A DNA stretch of 28,395 nucleotides from the IMG/VR virus record IMGVR_UViG_3300004279_000008, positions 1 to 28,395 of that record. One strand, given 5' to 3'. The DNA comes from a virus. A program made the translations under genes and the position numbers. This document shows positions 3,045-24,487 of the stretch, piece by piece (positions within the stretch are counted from its first letter, which is position 1; each line of letters starts with the position of its first letter). The notes beneath the pieces are model-generated. The model was not told the DNA's origin. It made no database searches and saw nothing but the letters and a program-made list of their open reading frames with translations.

Positions 3045-3053
3045 TATATAACG
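3045..3053 (-). promoter_or_regulatory. CGTTATATA element upstream of tail chaperone gene
   Basis: An exact CGTTATATA on the minus strand ends three bases before the ATG at 3041. It is preceded by AAAAACTAATTAAAATA and lies downstream of a terminator. It is one of five identical copies, each in front of a structural or packaging gene. It is either a phage late promoter or a translation-start element. Confidence 0.55.
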
Positions 3054-3087
3054 TATTTTAATTAGTTTTTTATACTAAGTAAATATA

Positions 3088-3124
3088 ATAAAAAAAGGCA
3101 CACCATTTCTGATGCACCTTTTAA
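3088..3124 (-). terminator. Rho-independent terminator after packaging operon
   Basis: On the minus strand AAAGGTGCA (3121-3113) pairs with TGTGCCTTT (3102-3094), nine pairs with two G-T wobbles, and is followed by a T run. It lies just after the 37-aa gene stop and before the chaperone gene, separating the packaging and tail units. Confidence 0.7.
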
Positions 3125-3143
3125 TCAAAACTAACTTACTTAA

Positions 3144-3257
3144 CTAAATCATACTTGCTTCATGACATGCGCCAGAGCATACGCCGGGGCTATCTATTTC
3201 TTCACCGCATTCACTACATTCATAATCTTTGTATTCAGGTGGGCTATACCAATCCAT
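3144..3257 (-). CDS. Zinc-ribbon-like microprotein (37 aa)
   Basis: ATG at 3257 lies inside the end of the preceding 44-aa gene (overlap of 14 bases) and the stop is at 3146-3144. The 37-residue, acidic peptide has CSECGEEID near residue 14, then CSGAC and a nearby His. This gives four cysteines in two pairs, CxxC and CxxxC, spaced as in a minimal zinc ribbon. It is the last gene before a terminator. Cys-rich microproteins of this type are common in phages. They may bind nucleic acid or protein partners, but no function can be given. Confidence 0.6.
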   Translation of the reverse strand: MDWYSPPEYKDYECSECGEEIDSPGVCSGACHEASMI

Positions 3258-3378
3258 AATATTCGGTTTTTAATTTACCATTTCGGTAATGTTCAACAAT
3301 AACACCGGTGCTTAAAGGTACTAACTTATAAGGCCTAATGCTTTTTTTTACAAGGTACTTGTTTATTAATTTTTTCAT
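3244..3378 (-). CDS. Small basic hypothetical protein (44 aa)
   Basis: ATG at 3378 follows the previous stop by one base and gives 44 residues, beginning MKKLINKYLVKKSIRPYK and ending YYGLV. It is lysine-rich at the N-terminus with a predicted short beta segment (VPLSTGVIVEHY). There is no recognised domain, signal peptide or membrane helix. It sits between two Cys-rich microproteins and overlaps the second. The tight packing and uniform strand support a real gene, but the short length leaves room for doubt. Confidence 0.5.
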   Translation of the reverse strand: MKKLINKYLVKKSIRPYKLVPLSTGVIVEHYRNGKLKTEYYGLV

Positions 3379-3379
3379 C

Positions 3380-3481
3380 TTATTCTTCTATTTCGTTAAA
3401 GCAAGCGTGTTCTAAACACTCACCACATATTTCATCACTTAAATAACTTGGTTCGGAACCACAACAATTTGATACTTCCAT
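3380..3481 (-). CDS. Cys-rich zinc-ribbon-like microprotein (33 aa)
   Basis: ATG at 3481 lies three bases past the stop of the 69-aa gene. The 33-residue acidic peptide contains SNCCGSEP near the N-terminus and CGECLEHAC near residue 19. The CC...CxxC plus Cys/His set suits one zinc ion. Similar CCGA/CxxC microproteins are familiar in T4-like and Bacteroidota phages. Together with the 37-aa protein it makes a pair of zinc-ribbon microproteins at the end of the packaging operon. Function unknown. Confidence 0.6.
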   Translation of the reverse strand: MEVSNCCGSEPSYLSDEICGECLEHACFNEIEE

Positions 3482-3484
3482 AAC

Positions 3485-3694
3485 CTAGTTTGTTTTGTTT
3501 GCTTGAAAATACAAGATTAAATAATTGGCCGCCGTTCTTTTGTCTAAGTCAAATTGGTCAACTAAGTAAGGTGTTGCACCAAACATATTAGTAACGCCAC
3601 TATCTTTTAAAATGTCTAAGTAAGTGAATACGTCTTGTATTTCTTGGTTTATTTCTTTGGCCATCTGCTTGGCATTGAATTTAGTGTTTTTCAT
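3485..3694 (-). CDS. Conserved small phage protein (69 aa)
   Basis: ATG at 3694, overlapping the upstream 46-aa gene by 14 bases. The 69 residues include a helical, lysine-rich N-terminus and the core DSGVTNMFGATPYLVDQF, followed by DKRTAANYLILYF. A VTNMFGA-x-PYL core with a helical C-terminus is a pattern I recognise from many phage genomes, including myoviruses and Bacteroidota phages. To my knowledge its role is not established. It lies between TerL and the zinc-ribbon microproteins. A small DNA- or protein-binding role is possible but unproven. Confidence 0.65.
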   Translation of the reverse strand: MKNTKFNAKQMAKEINQEIQDVFTYLDILKDSGVTNMFGATPYLVDQFDLDKRTAANYLILYFQANKTN

Positions 3695-3821
3695 TTTGTT
3701 CTATAAATTGGTTTAAAATTTGATTTAATGTAATTTCTTGGGTCATTGATATATCGCCAGTCTTTAGGCCAAAATCATCACATAGTGAGTCCCAACTAAT
3801 GTAGTTTAAAAGGTCGTGCAT
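3681..3821 (-). CDS. Small acidic hypothetical protein (46 aa)
   Basis: The reading frame is open further upstream, into the terminase gene, but the conserved-looking part starts at the ATG at 3821 with MHDLLNYISWDSLCDDFGL. That start gives 46 residues with a compact helical fold pattern (DLLNYISWDSLCDDFGLKTG, then EITLNQILNQFIEQNEK). I recognise similar SWDSxCDDxGL microproteins in Bacteroidota phages. The longer version would overlap TerL by 71 bases and begin with unrelated basic sequence, so I reject it. The gene is preceded by a 70-base AT-rich spacer. Function unknown. Confidence 0.6.
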   Translation of the reverse strand: MHDLLNYISWDSLCDDFGLKTGDISMTQEITLNQILNQFIEQNEKH

Positions 3822-3891
3822 GTCTGTTTGTTTTAAATTAATATACCGCAATATAAGTAAATTAAACTTAACAAACAACAATAAGGTATAA

Positions 3892-5100
3892 TTATGAAAT
3901 ATAGTACTTGCCTTTGTTCGGGTTTTGTAGTTGGTATGATATACTATAACGTACCGCATCAAGCAAATGATTGTGAAGATCTTGTGGGGTTTTTGACTTT
4001 TTTTCCAACCAAGAATAGTTGTTAAGTTCCTTAATTAAGTTTATGCTATTTTCTTCAATGATTAAATCATAGTCTTGTAATAATGCGATACCATAGGTTA
4101 TTGACCCTTGGCCTTTAATTGATTTTACCATATTGCACCCTTTGGCTTTAAGTTCGTGCAAAAGTCTGGGTTCGGCACTATCACCAACCACAAGGCCATC
4201 ATTAGCGTGTTTAAGGTTAAGTTCGGCAATTTGTGAAGTAGTTAGGCCTTTAAGGTAAAAGCATTCTTTTAAATAGATTATTTTGTTTGTTGTGTCTATG
4301 TTCGTTTCAACAAGTGTATTTTCGTCATTTGCAAAACCATAATCTTGACCCCAAACAGATACACCAACTTTTTTAAATTCACCTATTGACCAGTTTTCAA
4401 ATATGACCCCCTCGGCTTTTGCAAGCCAACCCCCAAGCATTTGATGTTTGTATTTGTCCGGCCTACGTTTCTTTATGTTTTCAATTTGGTCTAAATAGCT
4501 TTGCGATAGGTTTTCAAGATTGTCAAGGTATGTTGTATGTATATAGGTGGTATTTCCTTTTGTTTCGTTTAGGCCACCCATTACACCCTTGCTTTGAAAA
4601 AAGCGGTCATATATCCAATGTTCTTTTGTGACTGGGTTTAAAATAAGTATTATCCTATTCTTTTGTTTTAAGTTCCTTACACTTAAATCGATTTTGTCGA
4701 AGATGTTTTCATCATTAAGTTCTTCGGCTTCTTCCATTACCCAAGTACTTACATTTGTTAAACTTTTTAAATTCGCGCTCTGGTCACCGCTTGAAGTCCT
4801 TATACCACGAAATATAATCTTGCTACCTGATAGCTTATTTCTTATTTCATCTTTGGTGACGTAGAAATGATCTTGCAGTTTAAGCGTGTCAATTTTGTCT
4901 AAAAATTCAGGTATGATTGATATGTGCGCCGAAGTCAAAGTGAACCTTGTGAATAGGATTGTATGCCCGGCTTCATAAGTTAGCAATAACAATAATAGGT
5001 TTATAGAATACGATTTACCAGACCCACGCCCACCAGTTACAATATAATACCTTGCATCTGATGTTTGGATAGGTTCATACTTTGGGTCAACTTCTATCAC
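3892..5100 (-). CDS. terL: Terminase large subunit
   Basis: A 402-residue packaging motor ATPase and nuclease of the PBSX-like Terminase_3 type. Walker A is GGRGSGKS (residues 23-30), Walker B with the catalytic acidic pair is VMEEAEE (121-127), and an ILNP coupling-motif-like segment is near 153. The C-terminal RNase H-like nuclease shows acidic residues in GQDYGFAND (D253), GDSAEP (D307) and LLDAVRY (D381). Full length for the family. The ATG at 5100 overlaps the TerS stop as ATGA, so the two are translationally coupled. It is separated from the portal gene by the whole tail module, unlike the usual TerL-portal order. Confidence 0.97.
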   Translation of the reverse strand: MIEVDPKYEPIQTSDARYYIVTGGRGSGKSYSINLLLLLLTYEAGHTILFTRFTLTSAHISIIPEFLDKIDTLKLQDHFYVTKDEIRNKLSGSKIIFRGIRTSSGDQSANLKSLTNVSTWVMEEAEELNDENIFDKIDLSVRNLKQKNRIILILNPVTKEHWIYDRFFQSKGVMGGLNETKGNTTYIHTTYLDNLENLSQSYLDQIENIKKRRPDKYKHQMLGGWLAKAEGVIFENWSIGEFKKVGVSVWGQDYGFANDENTLVETNIDTTNKIIYLKECFYLKGLTTSQIAELNLKHANDGLVVGDSAEPRLLHELKAKGCNMVKSIKGQGSITYGIALLQDYDLIIEENSINLIKELNNYSWLEKKSKTPQDLHNHLLDAVRYSISYQLQNPNKGKYYIS

Positions 5101-5366
5101 TTAAATTTGATAATATCTTTAAAATTAATATTAAAACCATCAGTAGATGAAATGTCTACGCTCTCTTTTGGCTTGCCATATCTGTAACCAAAATATAAAG
5201 ACATAGCCCGGCCATCACCATTAAATATTTGCTCACCTAGTTTTCTAATGACTTCTTCATTGTCAATTAAATTATCTAGTTTTTCAATAAGCTTTTGTTC
5301 GTCTGCTTTTTTTGGTCTGCCGGCACCCTCTCTTTTGCCCCCATTATTTTTTCTTTTATCTTCCAT
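5097..5366 (-). CDS. terS: Terminase small subunit
   Basis: An 89-residue protein with a basic N-terminus (GGKREGAGRPKKADEQ, an AT-hook-like GRPKK segment), then helices, and LYFGYRYGKPKESVDI near residue 57. The GAGRPKK plus YRYGKPKE pattern is typical of small terminases in Bacteroidota and other siphoviruses. The protein should bind the packaging start site and feed DNA to TerL. It directly precedes and overlaps TerL. A CGTTATATA element lies 24 bases upstream of the start, so packaging genes may be switched on with the other late genes. Confidence 0.85.
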   Translation of the reverse strand: MEDKRKNNGGKREGAGRPKKADEQKLIEKLDNLIDNEEVIRKLGEQIFNGDGRAMSLYFGYRYGKPKESVDISSTDGFNINFKDIIKFK

Positions 5367-5390
5367 TTGAAATAAATTTGTTTATTCAAT

Positions 5391-5399
5391 TATATAACG
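5391..5399 (-). promoter_or_regulatory. CGTTATATA element upstream of terS
   Basis: Exact CGTTATATA on the minus strand, 24 bases before the terS ATG, the longest spacing of the five copies. It is preceded by AAAAACTAAAAGTAATTA, sharing AAAAACTAA with the copies at 3045 and 24479. This spacing would suit a promoter with a short leader better than a pure translation signal. Confidence 0.55.
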
Positions 5400-5408
5400 T
5401 AATTACTT

Positions 5409-5561
5409 TTAGTTTTTATTCAGCTTCAAATTAAGAAGTCTTTTTCTTAATGCTTTGCGTTCTTCACCTTTAGGTAATTTGTCAAATAGTTGTTGTAACT
5501 TTTGTATTAGTTTTTTCTTGCTCATAGTGTTTTGCATAAATTGCCATTCTGGTTTAATCAT
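5409..5561 (-). CDS. Small basic helical protein (50 aa)
   Basis: ATG at 5561 overlaps the methyltransferase stop as ATGA and gives 50 residues ending LNLKLNKN. The peptide starts MIKPEWQFMQNTMSKKKLIQ and continues as lysine- and leucine-rich helix (KLQQLFDKLPKGEERKALRK). An internal ATG at codon 13 could also serve. It is probably a short amphipathic helical protein or nucleic-acid-binding peptide. It is the last gene before the terminase operon. No family recognised. Confidence 0.55.
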   Translation of the reverse strand: MIKPEWQFMQNTMSKKKLIQKLQQLFDKLPKGEERKALRKRLLNLKLNKN

Positions 5562-6199: not shown

Positions 6200-6200
6200 T

Positions 6201-6945: not shown

Positions 6946-7655
6946 TTTGTTCTTAATTTTAATAGGTGATAGCACTCAGCGTATTTTTGCCTTGCCTTGC
7001 CTTTGTATTTTTGTTTAAATAATTCGTACATCTTTTTTGTGTATTGGTATTTTGTGTCGCAATCTTTTAAATATTTCTTTGCAAATACGCGGCCACGCCC
7101 ACGAAACATATTTACATTATCGGCGGTGTCCCCAATTATCATTTGTTCGTAAAAATTATACATTGCTTCATCTTCGGAAATATCAAGTATTTCTTTTTTT
7201 GAGTAATAATAATTATAAATCAAAGCCGGAAATTGTCGGTAGTCTTTATCAATTGAGCAAATCATAACTTCATTGCGGCCTATGTCATCAGAAATTTCTT
7301 TCCAGTACCTAGCAACAATATCATCAGTTTCAATACCATACCCCCATATACTATCATAGTAATCTTTAACATACTGGTGCATTTCATTTAATAGTGGTGG
7401 CAATTCTTGTTTTTTTCTATTGGCCTTATATGTTGGTGTTATAAGTTTACGGAAATTCCCCTTTGAACCACTAAAGGTCAAAACCTTGTCGATTGGCATT
7501 TGGTCTTCAAGGTCATTAATTATTTTCATATAGGATTGGTCGAATTTATTTCTTGCATCTTCTATGTCTTTATAGTAAAGGTCATCATCTGGGTTTTCCC
7601 TTTTACGATAGCAACTTGCAAAAATTAAACTATCGGCATCTATTAATAAAATCAT
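6942..7655 (-). CDS. 5'-3' exonuclease (PIN/FEN-like)
   Basis: A 237-residue nuclease of the phage 5'-3' exonuclease (T7 gp6/FEN-like) class. Acidic metal ligands appear in MILLIDADSL (D6, D8), IETDDIVARYW (109-112), CSIDKDYRQF (134-138) and IIGDTADNV (175-180), the last starting the helix-hairpin DNA-binding region. This is the full set of family motifs. It likely removes RNA primers or generates 3' tails for recombination by the Rad52-like and SSB proteins encoded upstream. It overlaps the 92-aa gene as ATGA. Confidence 0.85.
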   Translation of the reverse strand: MILLIDADSLIFASCYRKRENPDDDLYYKDIEDARNKFDQSYMKIINDLEDQMPIDKVLTFSGSKGNFRKLITPTYKANRKKQELPPLLNEMHQYVKDYYDSIWGYGIETDDIVARYWKEISDDIGRNEVMICSIDKDYRQFPALIYNYYYSKKEILDISEDEAMYNFYEQMIIGDTADNVNMFRGRGRVFAKKYLKDCDTKYQYTKKMYELFKQKYKGKARQKYAECYHLLKLRTK

Positions 7656-7930: not shown

Positions 7931-8079
7931 TTGTCTATTGTTATATTAAGTTTTAAATAATTCTTTTTACCGGGTTTTATTTGGTAATTAATTTGAACAT
8001 CGGTTATTTCACTATCTTGGGTAGTATGATATTCAATTTGTTTTTTCAGTTTTTCCCAAGCCGTTTCGTTTACTTCCAT
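7909..8079 (-). CDS. Small hypothetical protein (56 aa)
   Basis: ATG at 8079 and stop at 7911-7909 give 56 residues beginning MEVNETAWEKLKKQIEYHTT and ending TIDKWDTITE. It has an N-terminal helix followed by two beta strands (EITDVQINYQI and NYLKLNITI). No cysteine cluster or membrane helix. A 66-base gap separates it from the nuclease gene upstream, one of the few gaps inside the early block. Function unknown. Confidence 0.5.
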   Translation of the reverse strand: MEVNETAWEKLKKQIEYHTTQDSEITDVQINYQIKPGKKNYLKLNITIDKWDTITE

Positions 8080-8907: not shown

Positions 8908-9392
8908 GTTTTTAAATTTTCGCGTTTATTATAATATGCTTTTGTATATCCAAACATTTTGCAACCCCATTCACTTATTTCATCATAACTGCAAGTGTAA
9001 AATTCGGCGGTGATTTTATCTATTATATAAATAAACCAATAACAATCTACTTTAGTTTTACCTTTTGTATGTGATAATTCATTTACTAATATATGTGCGC
9101 CGTTAAAATGTTCGGTTGTTTTTATATCAATTCTGCTTTTGCTTGTTTTTAAATCAGCATCATGTGTTGGTGTTTTTGAAACTAAGTCAACCATTTCAAA
9201 TTCTATGTCATTATTGGTTAAATAGTCTAATGCTATTAATTCGCCAAGCACTCCAATTGTATCGACATGTTTTTGCTTTACACCCCTATTGTGTGTTTTC
9301 TTTTTATATTTTTCTTTATTAAGAATAGCCCTAGCATTACCAATTTCTTCGGCTATTTTCCAAAATGACTTAGGGAAATTATACTCTATCAT
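8904..9392 (-). CDS. Putative PD-(D/E)XK nuclease (162 aa)
   Basis: A 162-residue protein. The helix TIGVLGELIALDYL with E51, the segment HDADLKTS with D78/D80, and RIDIKTTEHF with D89-x-K91 give the order of a PD-(D/E)XK active site. The rest is alpha/beta with an aromatic strand VDCYWFIYII. Phage proteins of this layout are usually endonucleases acting on phage or host DNA. It starts at the ATG overlapping the sigma factor stop (ATGA). It is not evidently related to the 140-aa nuclease-like protein. Confidence 0.65.
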   Translation of the reverse strand: MIEYNFPKSFWKIAEEIGNARAILNKEKYKKKTHNRGVKQKHVDTIGVLGELIALDYLTNNDIEFEMVDLVSKTPTHDADLKTSKSRIDIKTTEHFNGAHILVNELSHTKGKTKVDCYWFIYIIDKITAEFYTCSYDEISEWGCKMFGYTKAYYNKRENLKT

Positions 9393-9871
9393 AATAATTT
9401 TTTTAGTTTTTTCTTTACCTTTTGATATGTGTTATATAAAGAATAGTATTGTATTTTACTTTTTCTTGAAAATTCGGCGATACTTTCATCACCTGAATTT
9501 ATTATTTCAAATACTTTACGGTCATACCAAAACATTTGTGATAATTCTTTTTGTACTTTATCATAAGGTTCTTGGTAGTTTACATCATTGATAGATAATT
9601 GTACGTTTTCTATTGATACCAGATTTATGTTTTTACCCTTTCGATTATAATCATAAAACAATGTTCTTAGCGTTTTGAAAATATAATAGTAGTTTATTTC
9701 TTTTTCGTTGTACATTATATCTAAGCCTTTTTTTTCTATTAAAAGCATTATTTTAATATACATTTCTTGTGTTAGATCTTCGGCTAATTCTTTTTTGCAA
9801 CCAAAAGACATACAGATTTGCACCCAGTCTTTATGTTTTTTTGCAATAAGCTTCATTGTTTCTTGTATCAT
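9389..9871 (-). CDS. Sigma-70 family RNA polymerase sigma factor
   Basis: A 160-residue ECF-sized sigma-like protein. The AEDLTQEMYIKIM segment (30-42) matches sigma region 2, followed by an aromatic/basic part (YYYIFKTLRTLFYDYNRKGK, about 62-81) in the place that melts and binds the -10 element. C-terminal residues 125-160 (DESIAEFSRKSKIQYYSLYN, then KVKKKLKK) form a region 4-like helix-turn-helix. It should redirect host RNA polymerase, and the natural target is the phage late genes. The CGTTATATA elements are candidates. It starts one base after the ATPase stop. Confidence 0.75.
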   Translation of the reverse strand: MIQETMKLIAKKHKDWVQICMSFGCKKELAEDLTQEMYIKIMLLIEKKGLDIMYNEKEINYYYIFKTLRTLFYDYNRKGKNINLVSIENVQLSINDVNYQEPYDKVQKELSQMFWYDRKVFEIINSGDESIAEFSRKSKIQYYSLYNTYQKVKKKLKKLL

Positions 9872-9872
9872 A

Positions 9873-10709
9873 TCATTTTAATGGGTCATATAAATTATTA
9901 ACTATTGTGGGCAAACCTTTTTCATTTACTTCAAAGCTGAATGTGTCAAAAGCATACCCACGACTTCGACCACATTTAACTGATGTGTAACCTTTGTTCA
10001 CATTATTTTCTTCTAAAAGTATTGTAGTTTCACTTTTTTTTTCAAGTGCCGAACCTAGGTGGCCGGTTCCAAGTTTTGCGCTTCCAAAGTTTTGGTGAAT
10101 TACATTTATGATATGACAATTATTTTGTTGTGAAATTCGCATTAAGGCACTTACTAAACTATTGCAAGATTTTATATCGTTAACATCATTACACATATCG
10201 GCCACACCATCTAAGATGACCAATGATGGTTCTTTTATGTTTTCCCTTAAATAGTATTCAAGAAATTTTAATCTATCAACATAGCTAATTGTACGCAATG
10301 CAAAAGTATTGTATTTGTCTTTTGGAATTTTTGAGTCCATTTGTAAAGGCCTTTGGAAAACCCGGCTTGCATGATAATTTGATTGCTCGGTATCAATATG
10401 AATTAAACTTCCATTACCCCTATGCCCTTTTATCTGGCCACCATAAATATTTGAACCGCTTAAATACGCGCTTGCTAAAAGGCTGCAAAAGAAGCTTTTA
10501 CGGGTTTTTGGGGGCGCGGTAATTGTACTGATATTGCCATACGTGCAAATTCCGATTGGTACTATTGTATCACCTTTATCAGAATGTATTACTTTTTCAC
10601 CATAGCTTATTGCCGTAGGTGGGTAGTCTATTTTTTTTTCAATGTCAATGAAACAAGTATCTGCGATAAATTCCATTAGCATGTTTTCTTCTGTTTGTTT
10701 TTCTGTCAT
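9873..10709 (-). CDS. RecA-like ATPase (AAA_25/RepA-type helicase-like)
   Basis: A 278-residue RecA-fold ATPase. The P-loop region TAPPKTRKSFF (64-74) keeps the Lys-Ser pair but lacks the usual GxxxxGK glycines. A conserved DTEQ (106-109) supplies the catalytic glutamate, Walker B is LVILDG (163-168), and a motif III-like HQN is at 205-207. These match the AAA_25/RepA helicase-like class used by phages and plasmids in replication or recombination. There is no primase domain. It is preceded by a terminator-like hairpin after SSB and followed by the sigma factor. Confidence 0.75.
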   Translation of the reverse strand: MTEKQTEENMLMEFIADTCFIDIEKKIDYPPTAISYGEKVIHSDKGDTIVPIGICTYGNISTITAPPKTRKSFFCSLLASAYLSGSNIYGGQIKGHRGNGSLIHIDTEQSNYHASRVFQRPLQMDSKIPKDKYNTFALRTISYVDRLKFLEYYLRENIKEPSLVILDGVADMCNDVNDIKSCNSLVSALMRISQQNNCHIINVIHQNFGSAKLGTGHLGSALEKKSETTILLEENNVNKGYTSVKCGRSRGYAFDTFSFEVNEKGLPTIVNNLYDPLK

Positions 10710-11956: not shown

Positions 11957-12142
11957 TTAGTTTTTCAGGTCTTTTTTCATTACGGCATCGATTATTTCTT
12001 GCCTATCAAAAATAATTAGCCGGTTAAACCTATAAGGCGTTAATTGTTCGGCTTTAATTAAATTGTTAATTGTACCTACTGAACATCTTAAAAGTTCGGC
12101 GGCTTCGGTTTTGTTTAAAAATAAAGGTGGTTCTTTTTCCAT
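11957..12142 (-). CDS. Helix-turn-helix (excisionase/MerR-like) DNA-binding protein
   Basis: A 61-residue protein with FLNKTEAAELLRCSVGTINN and LIKAEQLTPYRFNRLIIF, the winged helix-turn-helix layout of the HTH_17/excisionase family: helix AAELLRCS, turn, recognition helix GTINNLIKAEQL, then a wing with RFNRLIIF and a RQEIIDAVMK helix. With no integrase in the window it is more likely a transcriptional regulator than an excisionase. It is the first gene downstream of the Bacteroidota-type promoter at 12170-12200 and may control that early operon. Confidence 0.75.
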   Translation of the reverse strand: MEKEPPLFLNKTEAAELLRCSVGTINNLIKAEQLTPYRFNRLIIFDRQEIIDAVMKKDLKN

Positions 12143-12169
12143 TTAGTCTTATTAAAGATTAATAATGCC

Positions 12170-12200
12170 CAAATGTATACAAAAAAATACAATAAACAAA
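12170..12200 (-). promoter_or_regulatory. Bacteroidota-type promoter of the early operon
   Basis: On the minus strand TTTG (12200-12197), 19 bases, then TACATTTG (12177-12170) match the Bacteroidota consensus TTTG-N19-TAnnTTTG exactly. It is 28 bases upstream of the HTH gene start. Its -33 element overlaps the T run of the upstream terminator, a very compact back-to-back arrangement. It should be used by the host housekeeping sigma factor soon after infection. Confidence 0.75.
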
Positions 12201-12231
12201 AAAAAGGGCTACTTAAAAAAGCAGCCCCCTT
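12198..12231 (-). terminator. Rho-independent terminator after NinG
   Basis: On the minus strand GGGCTGC (12227-12221) pairs with GTAGCCC (12212-12206), including one G-T wobble that works only on this strand, with a TTTTTTAA loop and an eight-T run ending at 12198. It separates the NinG unit from the early operon promoter. Confidence 0.7.
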
Positions 12232-12295
12232 AATTTACTTTATACCGAAGATGTATAAAGACTTCAACTTAAACAGAACAAGTGACAAATATATG

Positions 12296-12709
12296 TTATT
12301 TCATTTTATCTACCAATTCTTTATAGTAATTTATTTTATCTAATAATTCATCATTTGAAAACTTTACAACTTCTTTTGATTTTACATAAAGTTCTTCGGC
12401 GGTACCATCACCAAATTTTTTATCTAAATTTTTACTAAATATAAATTGTTGGCCGTAATTATAAACATTACAAGAAACACATTGTGGCATGCAATTTTTA
12501 TCTTCCCACCGGGTAGCATAATTTTTTCTTGACTGGAAGTGGCCGCATTGCATACCATCACCATACCAATGGGTTACTTTACCACAAGTAAAACAAGAAA
12601 CATTTCCAAGATTATCAGCATCTTTTAACCGAATGTATTGGCTAAATATTGCATCTAGTTTCTTTACAATTTTACTTCTTGATAATTTTTTTGGTTTTTT
12701 AGATGGCAT
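12296..12709 (-). CDS. ninG: NinG-like recombination endonuclease
   Basis: A 137-residue protein of the lambda NinG (Rap) family, a Holliday-junction and D-loop endonuclease. Zinc-binding residues are CFTC (C39, C42), CGHF (C55, H57) and CMPQCVSCN (C73, C77, C80), with a basic N-terminus (PSKKPKKLSRSKIVKKLD). Lambda NinG is longer (about 200 residues), so this version lacks part of the C-terminus but keeps the metal-binding core. It overlaps the preceding 42-aa gene by 11 bases and ends before a terminator. Confidence 0.85.
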   Translation of the reverse strand: MPSKKPKKLSRSKIVKKLDAIFSQYIRLKDADNLGNVSCFTCGKVTHWYGDGMQCGHFQSRKNYATRWEDKNCMPQCVSCNVYNYGQQFIFSKNLDKKFGDGTAEELYVKSKEVVKFSNDELLDKINYYKELVDKMK

Positions 12710-18133: not shown

Positions 18134-20098
18134 TTATTTTACGCCCGGATAATGTCCTTGATTTGGCATGTTGACCGGTGCCGTTTCTGATTGTTTTGTT
18201 CCCCTTGGTGATTTTATATAACTATCCGGTATGCTTCTTGTTTTTTTATAGTCACTTAAATCTTCAGATGGTTCGGTATTCTTTTTAAGGCGATATAAGA
18301 CACGAACCCATTTATGGCGACAATATACCCCACCTTTGAATTTAAACAAGTCATAGGGCTTCCCGTTGTGTCCTAGGCTTTCGTTTACACCATCGCGCGA
18401 AGCTGCATCGATACCCTCTAATCTATATACAATGCCAGACTTAGATAATCGCATCATGTTTTCACAAAATGGCCTTGATTTATTATTGTCTTTCATTTGC
18501 TTTGTTGACCCAACAACGTACTTGTATCTAATCTTATAATTTTTACTATCTAAATAACTAAACCCACTTGGCTTTGATGTTATTTCATCAGCAAATTTTT
18601 TAAATAAAGACTTTTTTTCCTTAATACATAAAGCTGCCCAATCTTCATCGCTTATGTCTATGTCTGTTTCAAGTTCGTCAACTAATTCATATTCATCAGA
18701 TATTGTTTCACCTTTTAAATTGTCTAATATTTGTTCACCTAAATCATCTGATAAAAATTCTGAATGTGTTTCACAAGGCATATACCAAACATCATCACCA
18801 TCTTTATGTTCGTGGTAACCATCGCACCCTTGCTCTTTTGCTTTTGCTTTTGCTTCTTCTATTGTCTTATAAGCTTCTTTGCCATCAATTTGTTTTAAAT
18901 TAACCTTTGACATTTCAACACCGGTTTCTTCTTCAATGGTTTCTTTGTCTTGTAATGTTTGGTCTACTTCAGTAAATTCTAAGGGTTGTAAGGTCGTAAA
19001 GTATAGGTTTAAGCTAATATCGTTGTATGCTAGTATCTTATCAAAGTTATCTATTAAAAGTTCCTGAAATGGCCTTATAATCGTGTTATCCATTAAAATA
19101 CTGGCAACTTCAATTTCATCGGCATTATTTCCAAAACCTGAACCATTATTTATACCTAGTAATTTTGGGCTTACAATTCTATGGCTTAACATCACTTTGG
19201 TGCTGCATTCTTCCGATAAAAATTGATACTGGTTATGAGCATCACTTAATTGCACCGGTGTTATTTCGGCTTGGCTTTCTTTATTGTCGTTAAAAGCTAC
19301 AATCATACGGCCACTATTTGAAGACCCTTGGAATTTAGCCGCAATTCTACTTTCAATTAATTGGCGTTCTTGTTGGTTCGGAATTCCATTATTGAAATTT
19401 ATTAAAAGACCGGGTGCAAGGCCATTAATAACATTCGATAAATGGTAATTTGATACTTCTTCTTCAAGTTCGGCATACTGAAGCCCTCCTTGATAATCTA
19501 CCGGTGAATAGTAGTAAAAACCACTTTTGTATGGTTTAATGTATAATATTTCAATATCTTCATTAGACATACCCCAAGCCGGTATTCTTAAAGGTTCGTC
19601 TGAATTTGTTAAATTTGCCCAATCATTAAAATAATAATATGCCGGTATATTTCCATCTTCATCACATTTTGCAGCGCGTAAAGTTTCGATAGGCATGTGT
19701 TCTATTTCGGCAATTTTACTTCTATCTTTTGAGTAGATAACTTGTATTGCACATTGACCCATAAGTTTAAGATCGTAGCATAATTTCCTTACAATATCTT
19801 TTTTAAATAAAGATACCATTTGGGCATATTCGTTTGGTCTTCGGTTGCTATCGGTAGCATTTAAACCTTTACCATAAATTTGTTGGCTTACACCATTTAT
19901 ACAAGCCGAATTTGTAGGGCTTCCATTAAAACGGTCTATCAAAAACTGGAAATAATCATTATCAGCCCCATAGGAAATCCACGATTCGCCGTTTACTTCT
20001 TTTACTTCAGGGCTAGTATATGTACTTAATTGTAAAAAACTTGCTTCTTGCTTTTTGTTTTGCTTTACAAATTGACCCTTGTTATTTCTTTTTCTCAT
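18134..20098 (-). CDS. Portal protein with C-terminal extension
   Basis: 654 residues. Residues about 30-385 form the portal: WISYGADNDYFQFLIDRFNG, a helical stem region, an RIVSPKLLGINNGSGFGN-like segment near 307-324 typical of PBSX/HK97-like portals, and a crown helix RPFQELLIDNFDKIL. Portals of this type usually end near residue 450. The extension holds a Cys/His motif (YHEHKDGDDVWYMPCETH, 428-445), an acidic linker, then SRPFCENMMRLSKSGIVYRL (541-560) and GGVYCRHKWVRV (589-600). This may be a head-morphogenesis (MuF-like) or DNA-associated domain. The 130-aa gene stop overlaps its start (ATGA-type). Confidence 0.75.
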   Translation of the reverse strand: MRKRNNKGQFVKQNKKQEASFLQLSTYTSPEVKEVNGESWISYGADNDYFQFLIDRFNGSPTNSACINGVSQQIYGKGLNATDSNRRPNEYAQMVSLFKKDIVRKLCYDLKLMGQCAIQVIYSKDRSKIAEIEHMPIETLRAAKCDEDGNIPAYYYFNDWANLTNSDEPLRIPAWGMSNEDIEILYIKPYKSGFYYYSPVDYQGGLQYAELEEEVSNYHLSNVINGLAPGLLINFNNGIPNQQERQLIESRIAAKFQGSSNSGRMIVAFNDNKESQAEITPVQLSDAHNQYQFLSEECSTKVMLSHRIVSPKLLGINNGSGFGNNADEIEVASILMDNTIIRPFQELLIDNFDKILAYNDISLNLYFTTLQPLEFTEVDQTLQDKETIEEETGVEMSKVNLKQIDGKEAYKTIEEAKAKAKEQGCDGYHEHKDGDDVWYMPCETHSEFLSDDLGEQILDNLKGETISDEYELVDELETDIDISDEDWAALCIKEKKSLFKKFADEITSKPSGFSYLDSKNYKIRYKYVVGSTKQMKDNNKSRPFCENMMRLSKSGIVYRLEGIDAASRDGVNESLGHNGKPYDLFKFKGGVYCRHKWVRVLYRLKKNTEPSEDLSDYKKTRSIPDSYIKSPRGTKQSETAPVNMPNQGHYPGVK

Positions 20099-20484
20099 AA
20101 TACTATATAGTCATTATTAAAACCATCATATTCTTGGTATACATCTTTGTTTATCTTATAAAAATAATTGGGGTCTGCTTGTATGTCTATTTTTTGTTCA
20201 GTACAAAATACTCTATCGCGATAAATCACATTTGTTTTTCCTACATCTGAATAAATGGTCATATCGTAAAAGTGACCCTCGGCCATATTTGAATAGGTGT
20301 CATTATATACATTATAGGTGTCGTTTACAATTTCAATATTACCAACACCAACAACCCTAGGTATCAGGGTATAATCTACCGATACATTTGTGCTATCATC
20401 ACGAATAGTCATATATGCGTTTGTCACATATTCACGGGGTATGCATGTAAATTTATTTCCGGCTTGTGGTCTAAATATAATCAT
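20095..20484 (-). CDS. Structural protein upstream of portal (129 aa)
   Basis: I place the start at the ATG at 20484, four bases after a CGTTATATA element; a GTG one codon upstream is possible but less likely. 129 residues, beta-rich, with FRPQAGNKFTCIPREYV near the N-terminus, then GHFYDMTIYSDVGKTNVIYR and DRVFCTEQKIDIQAD, ending NDYIVL. I recognise the YDMTIY...NVIYRDRVFCT pattern from flavobacterial phage structural operons. It lies between the tail tube and portal genes and is probably a head-tail joining or minor structural protein. Function inferred from position. Confidence 0.6.
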   Translation of the reverse strand: MIIFRPQAGNKFTCIPREYVTNAYMTIRDDSTNVSVDYTLIPRVVGVGNIEIVNDTYNVYNDTYSNMAEGHFYDMTIYSDVGKTNVIYRDRVFCTEQKIDIQADPNYFYKINKDVYQEYDGFNNDYIVL

Positions 20485-20488
20485 CACC

Positions 20489-20497
20489 TATATAACG
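20489..20497 (-). promoter_or_regulatory. CGTTATATA element upstream of 129-aa gene and portal
   Basis: Exact CGTTATATA on the minus strand, four bases before the ATG at 20484 and just after the terminator at 20523-20555, where a new transcript is expected. The upstream sequence differs from the other copies (T-rich, TTAGTAATTTTTATA). Confidence 0.6.
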
Positions 20498-20522
20498 TAT
20501 AAAAATTACTAATTTGTAAAAA

Positions 20523-20555
20523 CAAAAAAAAAGCACCCGATTAAGGATGCTTTTA
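20523..20555 (-). terminator. Rho-independent terminator after tail tube gene
   Basis: On the minus strand AAAGCATCC (20553-20545) pairs with GGGTGCTTT (20538-20530), nine pairs with one G-T wobble, with a six-base loop and a T run ending at 20524. Placed just after the 179-aa gene stop. Confidence 0.75.
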
Positions 20556-20574
20556 ATTATAAGTAAATAATAAA

Positions 20575-21114
20575 TTATGCCGTAGGGTCAACTTGGTCTG
20601 CGGCCGGTGTTATTACTACCGAAGATGCTAAGAAATACGGTGCCGTTTCTTCCATTCCCTCCATCACAATTGTGAATCCTGATAAATCGCCGGCGGCTGC
20701 GCCAGTCTGAATTTGGCCACTCACCAATTCCATACCATTTTCTAAACCACATAAAAAGCGATTTGAATAGTAATCTTCAACTATAACGTATGGTCTTGCC
20801 ACCGCTACGGTTTGAAGTTCTGCTTGTGTTAAAGCATCTAAATAAGTAAGTGTAAGGTTTAAAGTTTGGGTGTAAAATGTCGTACCATTATCGCGACTCG
20901 ATACCACGGCCGTGTCTAATGATGATGTACCCTTGATGTCATACTCATACCAAGTTGGCGGTGTTGCCGCATCTGTAATTGCAGTTACTTCTTTTGTTGT
21001 TGGGTCTACCGTTATACTTCCAATAGTTCCAAAGTCTGCAAATAGTACTTTTTTAATACCACCAAAGGCACTTTTGCAAGGTAGTTTTCTACCCGTTGTT
21101 AATGAACAAGCCAT
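20575..21114 (-). CDS. Major tail (tube) protein, putative (179 aa)
   Basis: A 179-residue protein with no signal peptide, starting ACSLTTGRKLPCKSAFGGIK. It contains VLFADFGTIGSITVDPTTKE, YEYDIKGTSSLDTAVVSSRD, NGTTFYTQTLNLTLTYLDAL and TGAAAGDLSGFTIVMEGMEE. The beta-rich, small-domain layout and the position between major capsid and portal fit the tail tube protein seen in Bacteroidota siphoviruses. It is flanked by terminators on both sides, so it is probably a highly expressed single-gene transcript. Assigned by pattern and context, not by search. Confidence 0.65.
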   Translation of the reverse strand: MACSLTTGRKLPCKSAFGGIKKVLFADFGTIGSITVDPTTKEVTAITDAATPPTWYEYDIKGTSSLDTAVVSSRDNGTTFYTQTLNLTLTYLDALTQAELQTVAVARPYVIVEDYYSNRFLCGLENGMELVSGQIQTGAAAGDLSGFTIVMEGMEETAPYFLASSVVITPAADQVDPTA

Positions 21115-21130
21115 ATTTTTTTTGTTTTAT

Positions 21131-21168
21131 ATAAAAAAAGGGTAAGTAGGCAAAACCCACCTACCCTA
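21131..21168 (-). terminator. Rho-independent terminator after major capsid gene
   Basis: On the minus strand GGGTAGGTGGG (21166-21156) pairs with CCTACTTACCC (21150-21140), eleven pairs with two wobbles, with a five-base loop and a seven-T run. It is the strongest stem in the window and sits directly after the capsid gene stop. Confidence 0.8.
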
Positions 21169-21189
21169 GTTTTTGATTAATTATTAAAT

Positions 21190-22185
21190 TTAAGCGTATG
21201 AAACGATGTCATTAGTTCCAAATTGTACGGCCGCAGAAAAACGCATTACCATACGAATATTAGATGACCCGTCCAAATCGCGCATGTCTAAAACCTTGAC
21301 TTCATTTTGTGAATTCATCAAGCCGCAGCCGAAGTATAAATTTGACCTTTGCGCCGCATACATTTTGTCATCTGATAGTCCCGGTGAAACAAAAACTTTA
21401 ACGCCGTTTATCATAAGTGAGCCGTTGTTAAACCAAGTTGTACCCATATTATTTACACCGTTGTTTGTCATACCGGTAGCGAAACCACCTAATGCTTGAA
21501 CATAAAGCTTCGCAGCTTTAGAAGAAACATATACAAAAAGGTCTTCTTTACCATATAGTGTATTAGGAATGGCCGCAACTACCTTGCTCATTTCTTCAAT
21601 GATATTTACAGATGTTAAAGCAACACCGGCAATAGCTTGTGCCGCCGGAATTTCAGCCGCCGCAACCGCCGCAGCAATTAGTTTTTCAAAACCATCAAAA
21701 GAATTTACAGATGCCGCCGCAGTATCACCTCGCCAGATATTTTCTTCAGTTGACTGGGCAACCTCGGCCGCCACATGAGCAATTAGAAAATCTGAAAATG
21801 TAGGTGGTAAAGTAGTCGCAAGACCAAAGCCCATTTGCTGCGATTCCCAGTCCGATAGGAAATCATTTGAACACAAATTTAAGTTAACTTGTAGATTTTT
21901 TGGCTCAATTATACGCTCAGTAAGTGTGATTGTAGATGTTGGGTCAAAATCACATGTAGCGGTTTTTACTAAAGCATCGGTAGATAACTTTTTCAAAACT
22001 TCCTTAAAGCTGATGTTTGATTTAATTGTTAAACCGCCATCATCAATTGTGCTTGCGCTCAAAAGTGCTGCGGCAATATACGTACCAGAAAATTGTCCGG
22101 CATAGGTAGTCGTGATATTCGTAGCCGTGGCTAGGTTTACATTTCTTTTGCTTAAACCTACGTTTCTTTTATTCATTTTATTCAT
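21190..22185 (-). CDS. Major capsid protein (HK97-like fold)
   Basis: 331 residues. The N-terminus (NKRNVGLSKRNVNLATATNI) is basic and precedes a TYAGQFSGTYIAAALLSAST segment. Later segments such as NLCSNDFLSDWESQ, ENIWRGDTAAASVNSFDGFE and NNMGTTWFNNGSLMINGVKV, with MYAAQRSNLYFGCGLM, match Bacteroidota phage capsid proteins of the HK97 fold. It follows a scaffold-like gene by three bases and ends in the strongest terminator. The long Ala-rich helix near 165-190 fits the spine helix. Probably processed by the XkdF-like protease. Confidence 0.85.
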   Translation of the reverse strand: MNKMNKRNVGLSKRNVNLATATNITTTYAGQFSGTYIAAALLSASTIDDGGLTIKSNISFKEVLKKLSTDALVKTATCDFDPTSTITLTERIIEPKNLQVNLNLCSNDFLSDWESQQMGFGLATTLPPTFSDFLIAHVAAEVAQSTEENIWRGDTAAASVNSFDGFEKLIAAAVAAAEIPAAQAIAGVALTSVNIIEEMSKVVAAIPNTLYGKEDLFVYVSSKAAKLYVQALGGFATGMTNNGVNNMGTTWFNNGSLMINGVKVFVSPGLSDDKMYAAQRSNLYFGCGLMNSQNEVKVLDMRDLDGSSNIRMVMRFSAAVQFGTNDIVSYA

Positions 22186-22188
22186 TTT

Positions 22189-22749
22189 TTATTGATTTAA
22201 TTTGTTTATTACTCTATCTAGTGTTGTGTTAAATTTTCCTTTACCAAATTGCACTTGTTGTTTTTGTGTTTTGGTTTCTGGGTTATGTCTTAATGGTTTT
22301 CTTGAAGCACTCATTTCTTCTTTTTTCTTGTTATCAGAATAAAGTTTTTTAAGTTCTTCAATTTCTTCTTTTACTTCTTCAATTACTGGTGCAATAACTT
22401 CAACAACCGCTTCAATGATTGCTTCAATTTCAGTTACTACTTCTTCAGGTACTTCAGTTACCACTTCTTCAAGATCTTCAGTTTCTTCTTTGGCCGGTAC
22501 TTCATCAGATACTTCACGAACATCTGCAATTAAGCCCTCAGACTCAACTACTAATAAACGCCCATCTTCGAGTAAATATTCACCTACGGGCATTGCGATT
22601 TTTTCTTCATCACTTACAATGAAAATTTCACTATCTTTTTCAAATGATTCGGCGGTCACGATTGTGCCGTTTTCCAATTTCATTTCTTCAAGCTTCACTT
22701 CCATTTTTAGAAGCGTTCTTATTTGATTTAACATTTTTGTTTTTTCCAT
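22189..22749 (-). CDS. Putative scaffold/capsid-associated protein (186 aa)
   Basis: 186 residues with a highly acidic middle (about 85-140) made of Glu/Val-rich repeats (EEVVTEVPEEVVTEIEAIIE) predicted as long helix, then a basic C-terminus with SASRKPLRHNPETK. The N-terminal half is a small beta domain (NGTIVTAESFEKDSEIF, GEYLLEDGRLLVVES). Placement directly before the major capsid gene and the acidic helical design fit a scaffold protein. A CGTTATATA element lies six bases before the ATG. No active-site motif. Confidence 0.65.
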   Translation of the reverse strand: MEKTKMLNQIRTLLKMEVKLEEMKLENGTIVTAESFEKDSEIFIVSDEEKIAMPVGEYLLEDGRLLVVESEGLIADVREVSDEVPAKEETEDLEEVVTEVPEEVVTEIEAIIEAVVEVIAPVIEEVKEEIEELKKLYSDNKKKEEMSASRKPLRHNPETKTQKQQVQFGKGKFNTTLDRVINKLNQ

Positions 22750-22755
22750 ACTATT

Positions 22756-22764
22756 TATATAACG
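22756..22764 (-). promoter_or_regulatory. CGTTATATA element upstream of scaffold and capsid genes
   Basis: Exact CGTTATATA on the minus strand, continued as AAATA, six bases before the ATG at 22749. The extended CGTTATATAAATA is shared with the copy at 3045 and contains the T4-like late box TATAAATA. Confidence 0.55.
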
Positions 22765-22788
22765 ATTATTAATTATTTTTTTGCGTTT

Positions 22789-22950
22789 TTAAACTGTTCT
22801 TGTAATTACGCCTATGCCTTGGGCTTGCATAGAGCCATCGCAGCACTTACTTGAATAAGTTGCGGTGTCCCAACATAAACAACCCCTTTGACCGCCGGTA
22901 GGCGATGCATGGCTAGGTATAAAGGTTTTATTTTTATTGTTTCTATTCAT
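22789..22950 (-). CDS. Cys-rich microprotein (53 aa)
   Basis: ATG at 22950 overlaps the previous stop (TAATG), giving 53 residues ending IGVITRTV. The peptide contains GGQRGCLCWDTATYSSKCCD and the tail GSMQAQGIG. Four cysteines in CxC and CC pairs plus the KCCDG-x-(L/M)QAQGIG tail form a pattern I remember from many Bacteroidota phages, always among head genes. It may be a metal-binding minor virion protein or capsid-stabilising peptide. No function is established. Confidence 0.65.
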   Translation of the reverse strand: MNRNNKNKTFIPSHASPTGGQRGCLCWDTATYSSKCCDGSMQAQGIGVITRTV

Positions 22951-23396
22951 TAAGACCAATCCCTAAATTCCATTTCATTTTTCTTGTATTGTTCATCACT
23001 TTCACGCATATATTCCAATGCTTCCATATGTCTATCATATGATGGGTAAACATCATCTGCTTCTAAACCTAGTTCTTCGGCTTTTGCTTTAATTTCATTT
23101 AGTTTTTCAATATCACCTGAAACATCATCAAACCTAAATACTGCGCTTCCATTGTGTTGGTATTCATCGTTTAGTTCCATCCAAGCTTGGCGATATGCTT
23201 CAAATTTTTCATCGTGCCATTCGTAAGCTAAATAAGACAATAAACCGCTTTGGTCTTCAATAGTATCAATATCATAGTCTAAATTGTCAATCAATCCTAA
23301 TGCTACTTTATGTGCTTTAAGGTTTACTTTTTGCGATTTAAGGTCAACTTTATTTGTTGCCAGTTTGTCGTATACTCTATCTAATCTACTTTTCAT
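22950..23396 (-). CDS. Head-region protein, paralogue of its neighbour (148 aa)
   Basis: I choose the ATG at 23396 (MKSRLDRVYDKLATNKVDLK). An upstream start at 23450 would overlap the preceding gene with unrelated basic sequence. The 148 residues are charged and helical. The start (LDRVYDKL) and a later segment (IKAKAEELGLEADDVYPSYD) match positions of the 152-aa neighbour (IERVYSKL; VKADEIGVDPSVIDGYT), so the two are likely an old tandem duplication. Both lie between protease and scaffold genes, suggesting an internal head or scaffolding role. Confidence 0.6.
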   Translation of the reverse strand: MKSRLDRVYDKLATNKVDLKSQKVNLKAHKVALGLIDNLDYDIDTIEDQSGLLSYLAYEWHDEKFEAYRQAWMELNDEYQHNGSAVFRFDDVSGDIEKLNEIKAKAEELGLEADDVYPSYDRHMEALEYMRESDEQYKKNEMEFRDWS

Positions 23397-23436
23397 TTTA
23401 TATTTGGTTTTATTTATACTGTATAAGATTTGTTTT

Positions 23437-23895
23437 TTACCACTGCGCATCTACTATTGTTTTTAATCTATCAGCGTTATAGTGTACTTCTTCAAAATAA
23501 GCATCTTCGATACCTTTTATTGCAAAAAAATCTATTTTAGCTAATTCTTCTAGTTTTGTATATCCGTCTATAACGCTAGGATCTACTCCTATTTCATCGG
23601 CTTTTACTCTTACATTTTCTAATACTTCGTCAACTTGTTCGGTAGCATTGTACCCTAGACCTAAAAAAGCACTTGCCATAGAAACTTCGGTATTTGCTTC
23701 GTCTGCTATTTCTTCTATTCGCTTGCCTAAGTCTCTTAATTTAGCGTTGTAGTCTTCGCCATCTTTCATTAAAGGTTCTATTAAATTTATAGCTGCGTTT
23801 ATTTCGTCTACTAAACTTAATTTAATTTTATGGTTTTTAAAGTTGTGTTTCTTTTGTGGTAGTTTAGAGTATACCCTTTCAATGTTAGTTTTCAT
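23437..23895 (-). CDS. Head-region protein, paralogue of its neighbour (152 aa)
   Basis: ATG at 23895 is 11 bases inside the end of the protease gene. 152 residues, starting MKTNIERVYSKLPQKKHNFK, then helical with GEDYNAKLRDLGKRIEEIAD and VRVKADEIGVDPSVIDGYTK. It shares its N-terminal block and the KA(D/E)E(I/L)G block with the downstream 148-aa protein. Acidic and helix-rich, no membrane segment. A structural or assembly role in the head is inferred from its place after the protease. Confidence 0.6.
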   Translation of the reverse strand: MKTNIERVYSKLPQKKHNFKNHKIKLSLVDEINAAINLIEPLMKDGEDYNAKLRDLGKRIEEIADEANTEVSMASAFLGLGYNATEQVDEVLENVRVKADEIGVDPSVIDGYTKLEELAKIDFFAIKGIEDAYFEEVHYNADRLKTIVDAQW

Positions 23896-24475
23896 TTAAT
23901 ATATCTTTTATTTGGTTTAATAATTGTCCCGACATTTTTTCTTTTTCTTTGTCGTTTGGTGACTCTATTTTATCGGCGAAAAATCCTTCAATACTGAAGC
24001 CACGGCATTTCTTAGTTAAAATATATTCTTGCCAAACTTTTTCGTTATTCACCTTAACGCTGCCGACCCACGAACCCACCGGTACGTCTAGGCCATACAA
24101 TGCGGTTTTATCTTTTTCTTTATCTTCTACAATCCAACTTTCAACTAAGGTTAACCCATCAAGGGGCTTCGCATGTTCAAGTGTCGAATTACTTTGGTTC
24201 CCATTTTGAAGAAATAATTGTGATGCTTTATTTATTGTTTCTTTGGAAAAAAATATATAATATTCACCATCTTCACCGGTTCTATAAATTGGCTTATCAG
24301 GTATTAATAAAGCCCCCATAAGTATACGTTTTTCTTTGTCTACTTCAGCAAGTTTTATTTCTTGATTTTTCAAAGCCACAAAGTCACTTTCGATGGCCGG
24401 TGATTCCACAATTGATATTGCTTCGATTCCGGCTTCAAAATCTTCTTCATCTAAAATAAGTTCTATGATCTTCAT
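23885..24475 (-). CDS. XkdF-like prohead serine protease
   Basis: 196 residues resembling the phage XkdF-type putative serine protease. The segments GEDGEYYIFFSKETINKASQ, STLEHAKPLDGLTLVESWIV (His105 region with a later Ser) and YGLDVPVGSWVGSVKVN, then CRGFSIEGFF, follow the prohead protease layout with His and Ser catalytic candidates. It would cleave scaffold and capsid N-termini during head maturation. It starts three bases after a CGTTATATA element and leads the head operon, overlapping the 152-aa gene by 11 bases. Confidence 0.75.
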   Translation of the reverse strand: MKIIELILDEEDFEAGIEAISIVESPAIESDFVALKNQEIKLAEVDKEKRILMGALLIPDKPIYRTGEDGEYYIFFSKETINKASQLFLQNGNQSNSTLEHAKPLDGLTLVESWIVEDKEKDKTALYGLDVPVGSWVGSVKVNNEKVWQEYILTKKCRGFSIEGFFADKIESPNDKEKEKMSGQLLNQIKDILNEN

Positions 24476-24478
24476 AAA

Positions 24479-24487
24479 TATATAACG
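24479..24487 (-). promoter_or_regulatory. CGTTATATA element upstream of protease gene
   Basis: Exact CGTTATATA on the minus strand, three bases before the ATG at 24475, preceded by AAAAACTAAACA. The short gap before it (24488-24509) shows no terminator hairpin. Confidence 0.55.

Follow-up and report, generated by a model that had tools for sequence, protein, structure and literature searches.

The window analysed here, a 28,395-nucleotide stretch comprising positions 1 to 28,395 of the IMG/VR virus record IMGVR_UViG_3300004279_000008, carries on its minus strand five genes that appear to be devoted to virion assembly and DNA packaging, each of which is preceded by the nine-base element CGTTATATA, together with a gene for a sigma factor-like protein (Table 1). 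An exact search of both strands confirmed the original prediction that the element occurs five times, exclusively on the coding (minus) strand and with no further copy; dinucleotide shuffles of the window held a mean of 0.48 copies, and none of 100 shuffles reached five. When one mismatch was allowed, 12 sites were seen against 11.7 expected, and because this count equals expectation, only exact copies accompanied by the upstream block described below are regarded as informative.

The spacing of 3 to 24 bases between element and gene start, as originally described, was also reproduced, the gap to the ATG being 3 nt at the tail-chaperone-like gene, 24 nt at terS, 6 nt at the scaffold-like gene and 3 nt at the protease gene; at the pre-portal gene it is 4 nt to an ATG or 1 nt to a GTG. 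Two copies do lie just after terminators, as had been noted. The name "tail chaperone" for the product of 2391-3041 was not borne out by PHROGs, which places it in a family of unknown function. A further suggestion, namely that two copies extend to a sequence containing a T4-like late promoter box, was accurate in so far as two copies do form CGTTATATAAATA; however, the window contains 11 copies of TATAAATA distributed over both strands, and relatives show no conservation of the extension. T4 late promoters have no -35 element and consist of one TATAAATA box, whereas the sites in the window possess a conserved -35 block and a CGTT core, with TATAAATA unconserved. The T4-like reading was consequently dropped.

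TABLE 1 Proposed late promoters, terminators, target genes and sigma factor gene of the window
Feature	Position	Strand	Remarks
Protease promoter, -10 CGTTATATA	24479..24487	-	Before 23885-24475; predicted +1 24475, the A of ATG
Protease promoter, -35 GCAAAA	24502..24507	-	CAAA at 24503-24506; 15-nt spacer
Scaffold promoter, -10 CGTTATATA	22756..22764	-	Before 22189-22749; predicted +1 22752, 3-nt leader
Scaffold promoter, -35 GCAAAA	22779..22784	-
Pre-portal promoter, -10 CGTTATATA	20489..20497	-	Gene 20095-20487, ATG at 20484; predicted +1 20485
Pre-portal promoter, -35 ACAAAT	20512..20517	-
terS promoter, -10 CGTTATATA	5391..5399	-	Predicted +1 5387, 21-nt leader
terS promoter, -35 ATAAAA	5414..5419	-	TAAA variant
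Tail-chaperone-like gene promoter, -10 CGTTATATA	3045..3053	-	Predicted +1 3041, the A of ATG
Tail-chaperone-like gene promoter, -35 ATAAAA	3068..3073	-	TAAA variant
Intrinsic terminator	20529..20554	-	Just upstream of pre-portal promoter
Intrinsic terminator	3093..3122	-	Upstream of tail-chaperone-like gene promoter
Head maturation protease gene	23885..24475	-	Target gene
Scaffold-like gene	22189..22749	-	Target gene; directly upstream of capsid-protein-like gene 21190-22185
Pre-portal gene	20095..20487	-	Target gene; directly before portal
Small-terminase-like gene (terS)	5097..5366	-	Target gene; directly before terL 3892-5100
Tail-chaperone-like gene	2391..3041	-	Target gene
ECF-like sigma factor gene	9389..9871	-	160 aa; regions 2 and 4 at about residues 1-81 and 96-159, respectively; predicted promoter reader

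Bipartite architecture and variation among relatives

The original prediction overlooked a second conserved block, located about 15 nt upstream of the nine-base element. Across 356 distinct sites in relatives, this block takes the form (R)YAAA(W) and is positioned 15 nt upstream of the core: CAAA is separated from it by 15 nt at 252 sites and by 16 nt at 2, and TAAA by 15 nt at 68 more, with CAAA at the fixed 15-nt spacer carrying 1.8 to 1.9 bits per position. The two-part motif is present five times in the window versus 0.003 expected. In 698 kb of relatives, CGTTATATA was encountered 122 times in forward and 0 times in reverse orientation, and an unbiased 8-mer scan ranked CGTTATAT first upstream of ATGs (z of 32 and 48); two extra copies of CGTTATATA, in relatives G003 and G005, are intragenic and lack the -35 block. 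The distance from the -10 to the ATG is 3 to 7 nt at most sites and 23 to 38 nt ahead of terS, and the C of CGTT lies 12 to 16 nt from the A of the ATG at four of the five gene types.

Rigid spacers and a -10 of the form G-11 T-10 T-9 are described for ECF promoters (PMC6411747), and the ECF -10 of Flavobacterium is known as the "CGT box" (PMC9723704). The relatives display both properties, since the -35/-10 spacer is 15 nt at 252 of 254 CAAA sites and GTT is kept in all of the recognised variants (CGTTATATA, CGTTAATATA, TGTTATAT, CGTTTTAA and TGTTATTC). Two short blocks, a rigid spacer and a GTT -10 core are likewise typical of group 4 (ECF) promoters such as those of Mycobacterium tuberculosis SigH (GGAACA / GTT) and the "CGT box" class SM6 in Flavobacterium psychrophilum, although the phage -35 is RYAAA(W) rather than GGAAC-like. 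There is thus strong support at the sequence level for regarding CGTTATATA as the -10 half of an ECF-like, two-part promoter in which the spacer is fixed at 15 nt and the core is GTT.

Conservation before homologous genes in relatives, which had been put forward as a check, is clear. Sites at terS, the tail-chaperone-like gene, the protease gene, the scaffold-like gene and the pre-portal gene are common to 12 genomes (the window and 11 near-complete relatives), with few missing, and altered versions that keep the GTT core occur, either at the same late genes or at adjacent ones, in many distant relatives, among them the isolate Nonlabens phage P12024S. The Nonlabens (Persicivirga) phages P12024S/L (genus Inhavirus), whose portal is 37% identical to that of the window, have late genes preceded by ACAAAW-N12-13-CGTTAATA, giving a CAAA-to-CGTT spacer of 13 to 14 nt versus 15 nt and CGTTAATATA in place of CGTTATATA. 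Element similarity is higher within genomes (0.69) than between genomes (0.54; P = 0.0002), a pattern that control genes did not show in the same concerted-variation test; such concerted change is as expected for sites with one trans-acting reader.

When viral contigs were scanned with the pattern, 105 of 111 new loci among the matches listed belonged to the same phage family, compared with 4 of 80 loci among the matches listed for a scrambled-pattern control, and the two-part switches are present in more than 100 related ocean virus fragments. No form of the element was found near terS in a distant terL group (L218-L241), where the repeated AAATACAGC looked like something different. The literature searched contained no earlier description of these late promoters.

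The phage-encoded sigma factor-like protein

A sigma-like gene is indeed present in the window, as the original prediction had stated, and its 160-aa product shows the ECF layout of regions 2 and 4 alone within about 160 to 200 aa. Profile comparison with PDB entries returned the ECF sigmas SigW (E = 2.5e-7, both domains), SigE and SigL; modelled residues 1 to 81 match sigma-2 structures (SigR fragment, 2.2 Å over 70 residues) and modelled residues 96 to 159 match region 4 of Escherichia coli sigmaE bound to -35 DNA (1.9 Å over 64). Its score against Pfam Sigma70_r2 is 17.4 bits, below the 24-bit cut-off. Among 24 members of the sigma family, 12 match Pfam Sigma70_r2 or r4 at E 0.01 and 7 match a PHROG named RNA polymerase sigma factor. 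When isolate phages were searched directly with the window protein, no match reached significance; gp33 of P12024S, annotated as Sigma-70 region 2 in P12024S/L, scores above the Pfam cut-off.

One homologue per genome was found in 19 of 19 genomes examined, upstream of terS in 13 of the 14 for which both positions were listed. With portal distance controlled, promoter distance and sigma distance are suggestively correlated (partial Mantel r = 0.22, P = 0.076), a value at which the sigma-promoter match is inseparable from shared descent. Possession of sigma-2 and sigma-4 alone likens the protein to group 4 (ECF) sigmas, from which it differs in being phage encoded and in appearing to drive virion genes; in the latter respect it would resemble T4 gp55, a phage-encoded sigma-like protein that turns on virion genes late. 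The phage ECF-like sigma is most likely the factor that reads these promoters.

Proposed late gene control and competing explanations

Second block and same-gene placement in relatives together support the late-promoter regulon originally envisaged; a phage sigma as its likely reader and leaderless or near-leaderless messages, the other elements of the original interpretation, also find support. The promoter role of the elements is strongly supported by comparative analysis, which shows that the element is bipartite, has a rigid spacer, is placed orthologously and varies in concert, and that every genome encodes an ECF-like sigma. The element is associated with late intergenic regions and host-type TAnnTTTG boxes with others (odds ratio 10.9, P = 5e-11), and late genes of the whole family are depleted of TAnnTTTG (8 forward versus 33 reverse). 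None of the five window sites has TAnnTTTG, the Bacteroidetes primary-sigma promoter, at -7, and promoter-like matches in a generic sigma-70 scan did not exceed those in shuffles.

We propose that the window very probably contains five late promoters of the form (R)YAAA(W)-N14-CGTTATATA, read by the phage's own ECF-like sigma and yielding near-leaderless mRNAs. Host RNA polymerase carrying the phage sigma would engage all five, region 4 contacting the CAAA/TAAA block and region 2 the CGTT. The sigma gene belongs to the early (DNA-metabolism) module, in which genes have host-type TAnnTTTG boxes, and its product, once synthesised, would turn on terS-terL, the tail operon, the protease, scaffold-capsid and pre-portal-portal, with late promoters restarting transcription downstream of terminators. 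The specificity of the sigma for these sites, the precise points of initiation and expression late in infection are features that we infer. Because ECF geometry (G at -11) sets the predicted starts at or near the ATG, four late mRNAs would be leaderless or nearly so, starting on or 1 to 4 nt before the ATG, and the terS message would start about 21 nt before it. Certain observations sit less comfortably with this proposal: the Pfam score of the window sigma is below the cut-off, flavobacterial hosts make few leaderless mRNAs (5.5%; PMC9723704), most target genes in a terL group further removed (e.g., G020) lack a clear form of the element despite the presence of a sigma homologue, and L062 and L074 combine a more P12024-like sigma with promoters near the window type.

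That the promoters are real but read by a host ECF sigma is improbable. Such a sigma could read a CGTT -10, given that seven ECF sigmas and a class of promoters with a "CGT box" are known in F. psychrophilum (PMC9723704), but every phage genome examined encodes its own ECF-like sigma, and the element version is phage specific and concerted within genomes, although differing hosts could also yield such differences. The proximity of most copies to the ATG is what would be anticipated of a translation-start or mRNA-level element, such as a Kozak-like context or a site bound by an RNA-binding protein, and Bacteroidetes initiate translation without Shine-Dalgarno sequences, favouring A-rich start contexts (PMC6847099). 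A role of this kind is nevertheless very unlikely: the -35/-10 distance is constant whereas that to the ATG is variable, reaching 38 nt at terS, orthologous pre-portal sites follow a terminator-like run of six or more Ts in 58 of 58 cases, and most other genes lack the element.

A conserved bipartite site before co-regulated genes might equally be expected of operators bound by a phage repressor or activator, with another promoter driving the genes. The element is, however, non-palindromic and fits ECF -35/-10 geometry, host-type TAnnTTTG boxes are depleted at late genes, and the genome encodes an ECF-like sigma, leaving this the least probable of the explanations considered.

Recognition by the phage's own sigma would provide a sequence-level, testable account of late gene control in a widespread group of ocean phages that are uncultured. 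Two predictions follow from it: a phage ECF sigma whose promoter code is defined, and which may serve Bacteroidetes as an orthogonal expression part, and virion mRNAs that are leaderless in hosts with few such messages. In metagenomic contigs from this marine flavobacterial phage family, the motif also flags late operons. We lean, by a modest degree, towards the broader view that this large family employs a dedicated ECF-type late sigma and leaderless virion mRNAs, with sigma and promoters co-varying as a code private to each clade.

A two-block element before the late genes

Phage-family matches among the genes of the window, a 28,395-base viral contig, include terminase, portal, protease, tape measure, endolysin, NinG and Erf, and the window's only portal relatives among an isolate phage collection are the Nonlabens phages P12024S and P12024L (~37% identity); it is thus taken for a marine flavobacterial phage, the probable host being inferred from these relatives. 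The original prediction had described five exact copies of CGTTATATA and no others, and the window indeed contains exactly five, all on the minus (coding) strand, whereas dinucleotide shuffles average 0.48 and never reach five. The distances from element to gene start and the terminators upstream of two copies, both part of the same prediction, were likewise confirmed on the window. The search of related phages that it had proposed, applied to 80 contigs gathered by portal similarity (698 kb), returned 122 forward and 0 reverse copies.

Alignment of 105 distinct sites revealed a second conserved block upstream, R-C-A-A-A-W, in which the four bases of CAAA each carry 1.8-1.9 bits and are separated from CGTT by 15 nt. 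Across 356 distinct sites, the CAAA spacer was 15 in 252 and 16 in two, while TAAA was found at spacer 15 in 68 further sites, and 29 sites had neither CAAA nor TAAA. Composites of the two blocks number 5 in the window versus 0.003 expected from Markov shuffles, and an unbiased scan ranked CGTTATAT first among the 8-mers enriched before ATGs in both close groups. Two blocks with a rigid spacer, as read from these alignments, are arranged like a -35/-10 promoter.

Placement and variation among relatives

In the window and 11 near-complete relatives, sites precede terS, the tail-chaperone-like gene, the protease, the scaffold and the pre-portal gene. The terS site was not seen in G006, nor the scaffold site in G007, whose contig ends within that stretch; the ORF after the first site in G005 is an unassigned one of 119 aa, and no ORF is called directly after that site in G009. 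Just two extra copies occur in this set (G003 and G005), both intragenic and lacking a -35 block. A terminator-type T-run lies upstream of 58/58 pre-portal sites with enough preceding sequence. The C of CGTT lies 12-16 nt from the ATG at four gene types versus 33-40 nt at terS (the terS site being 23-38 nt upstream of the ATG in the terL group), whereas the -35 spacer is constant at 15, except for a spacer of 16 at two terS sites and the absence of YAAA at one. A promoter is, therefore, favored over a translation element.

In intergenic regions before late genes of 20 genomes, the GTT element outnumbers the host-type TAnnTTTG box 81 to 8, versus 53 to 57 in other intergenic regions (odds ratio 10.9, p = 5e-11). 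Intergenic TAnnTTTG boxes of the window cluster before the lysis and early genes.

Several further features were observed in the window (see table). The terS promoter and start codon are separated by an inverted repeat rich in A/T, ATTGA(A/T)TAA(A/T)CAAT, which is conserved, also occurs in terL-group loci and could represent an operator or be bound by TerS. Downstream of the capsid-like gene is a strong terminator, and no late promoter precedes the gene behind it, an arrangement in which attenuation by read-through is possible. At its end, the tail-chaperone-like gene is overlapped by another ORF in a different frame, a layout similar to that of frameshifted tail assembly chaperones.

Distant relatives carry altered forms of the element (see table), its form being unclear or absent at most of these late genes in G010, G012, G016 and G020. 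A motif-blind test of concerted variation, covering, in 10 genomes, the 14 nt upstream of the ATG of three orthologous genes, gave a pre-ATG similarity of 0.69 within a genome versus 0.54 when one gene was compared across genomes (p = 0.0002), as predicted for a single trans-acting reader per genome; for control genes, within-genome similarity was not above between-genome similarity (permutation p = 0.04 and 0.18). In a distant terL group (L218-L241), no CGTT elements were found upstream of terS, and a tandem array of AAATACAGC repeats (11-bp period) immediately upstream of the gene is a candidate packaging site.

Features of the window and its relatives, with altered element forms
Source	Feature or form	Coordinates	Location
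Window	ECF-like sigma gene, 160 aa	9389-9871	
Window	TAnnTTTG cluster	14370-11756 (e.g., 14370, 12889, 12293, 12177)	
Window	Inverted repeat	5390-5367	
Window	Terminator	21167-21139	
Window	Gene behind terminator	20575-21114	
Window	Tail-chaperone-like gene	2391-3041	
Window	Overlapping ORF	2305-2559	
L062	Sigma gene	9441-9932	
L074	Sigma gene	11969-12460	
L239	Tandem AAATACAGC repeats	7627-7645	before terS
P12024S	CAAA-N13/14-CGTTAA		before six late genes
P12024S	CGTTACTATA		before gp01
G015	AACAAA, 13-nt spacer, TGTTATAT		before terS, tail-chaperone gene, pre-portal gene
G015	TGTTATATAA		before protease
G017	CGTTT(T/A)TAATAT		
G013	CGTTTTAAA		
G011	TGTTATTC		
G022	CGTTATAA or CGTTTTAA		
G014	GTTTTAAA, longer leader		

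An ECF-like sigma as predicted reader

That phages can encode sigma factors for their late genes is established in principle, as in T4 (gp55) and SPO1. The literature searched, flavophage papers included but with subscription papers under-covered, yielded neither an earlier description of this late-promoter family nor an earlier ECF-type phage late sigma.

The window sigma protein alone scores under the Pfam cut-off; among 24 family members, Sigma70_r2 is matched by 12 at E 0.01 and a PHROG with the name sigma factor by 7, and a profile of all 24 matches ECF sigmas in the PDB, led by SigW (E = 2.5e-7 across both regions) and followed by SigE and SigL. The top Foldseek matches to the AlphaFold model (mean pLDDT 82, linker poor) are almost without exception ECF sigmas; their whole-chain TM is low owing to a different placement of the two domains. 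Compared domain by domain, residues 1-81 fit sigma-2 structures at 2.2-2.9 A and residues 96-159 fit sigma-4 structures, including region 4 of E. coli sigmaE on -35 DNA (1.9 A over 64 residues). For helical domains, Z values of 8-10 such as these are moderate, so the sequence profile outweighs the structural match.

A sigma homologue is present in 23/30 records, the remainder being six contigs no longer than about 20 kb and G010; one was present in every one of the 19 fully read genomes. Both gene positions were listed for 14 genomes; in 13 of them the sigma gene precedes terS by ~1-6 kb, the exception being G014. A partial Mantel test of promoter against sigma distance, controlled for portal distance, gave an at most suggestive r = 0.22 (p = 0.076), and the apparent pairing of sigma with promoter may equally reflect shared descent. 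The sigma genes of L062 and L074 are more P12024-like, though the portal is window-like, and may have been exchanged; both contigs carry window-like promoters, slightly changed in L074. That a host ECF sigma, instead of the phage protein, reads the promoters is considered improbable.

Predicted transcription starts

The SigH -10 consensus of Mycobacterium tuberculosis is G-11 T-10 T-9 with a rigid spacer, and the scaffold on which its -35 block lies starts at -34 (PMC6411747). If the G of CGTT is set at -11 by this geometry, the RYAAAW block would occupy approximately -32 to -27 and transcription would start 12 nt past the C of CGTT. The predicted start would coincide with the A of the ATG at 3041 and at 24475; for the ATGs at 20484 and 22749 it would lie 1 and 3 nt upstream, respectively, and for terS 21 nt upstream. 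In Flavobacterium psychrophilum, one class of ECF promoters has been reported to contain a "CGT box", and leaderless mRNAs account for 5.5% (PMC9723704), while 87% of predicted leaders in F. johnsoniae exceed 10 nt (PMC6847099); the near-leaderless phage messages predicted here would thus be unusual for such hosts.
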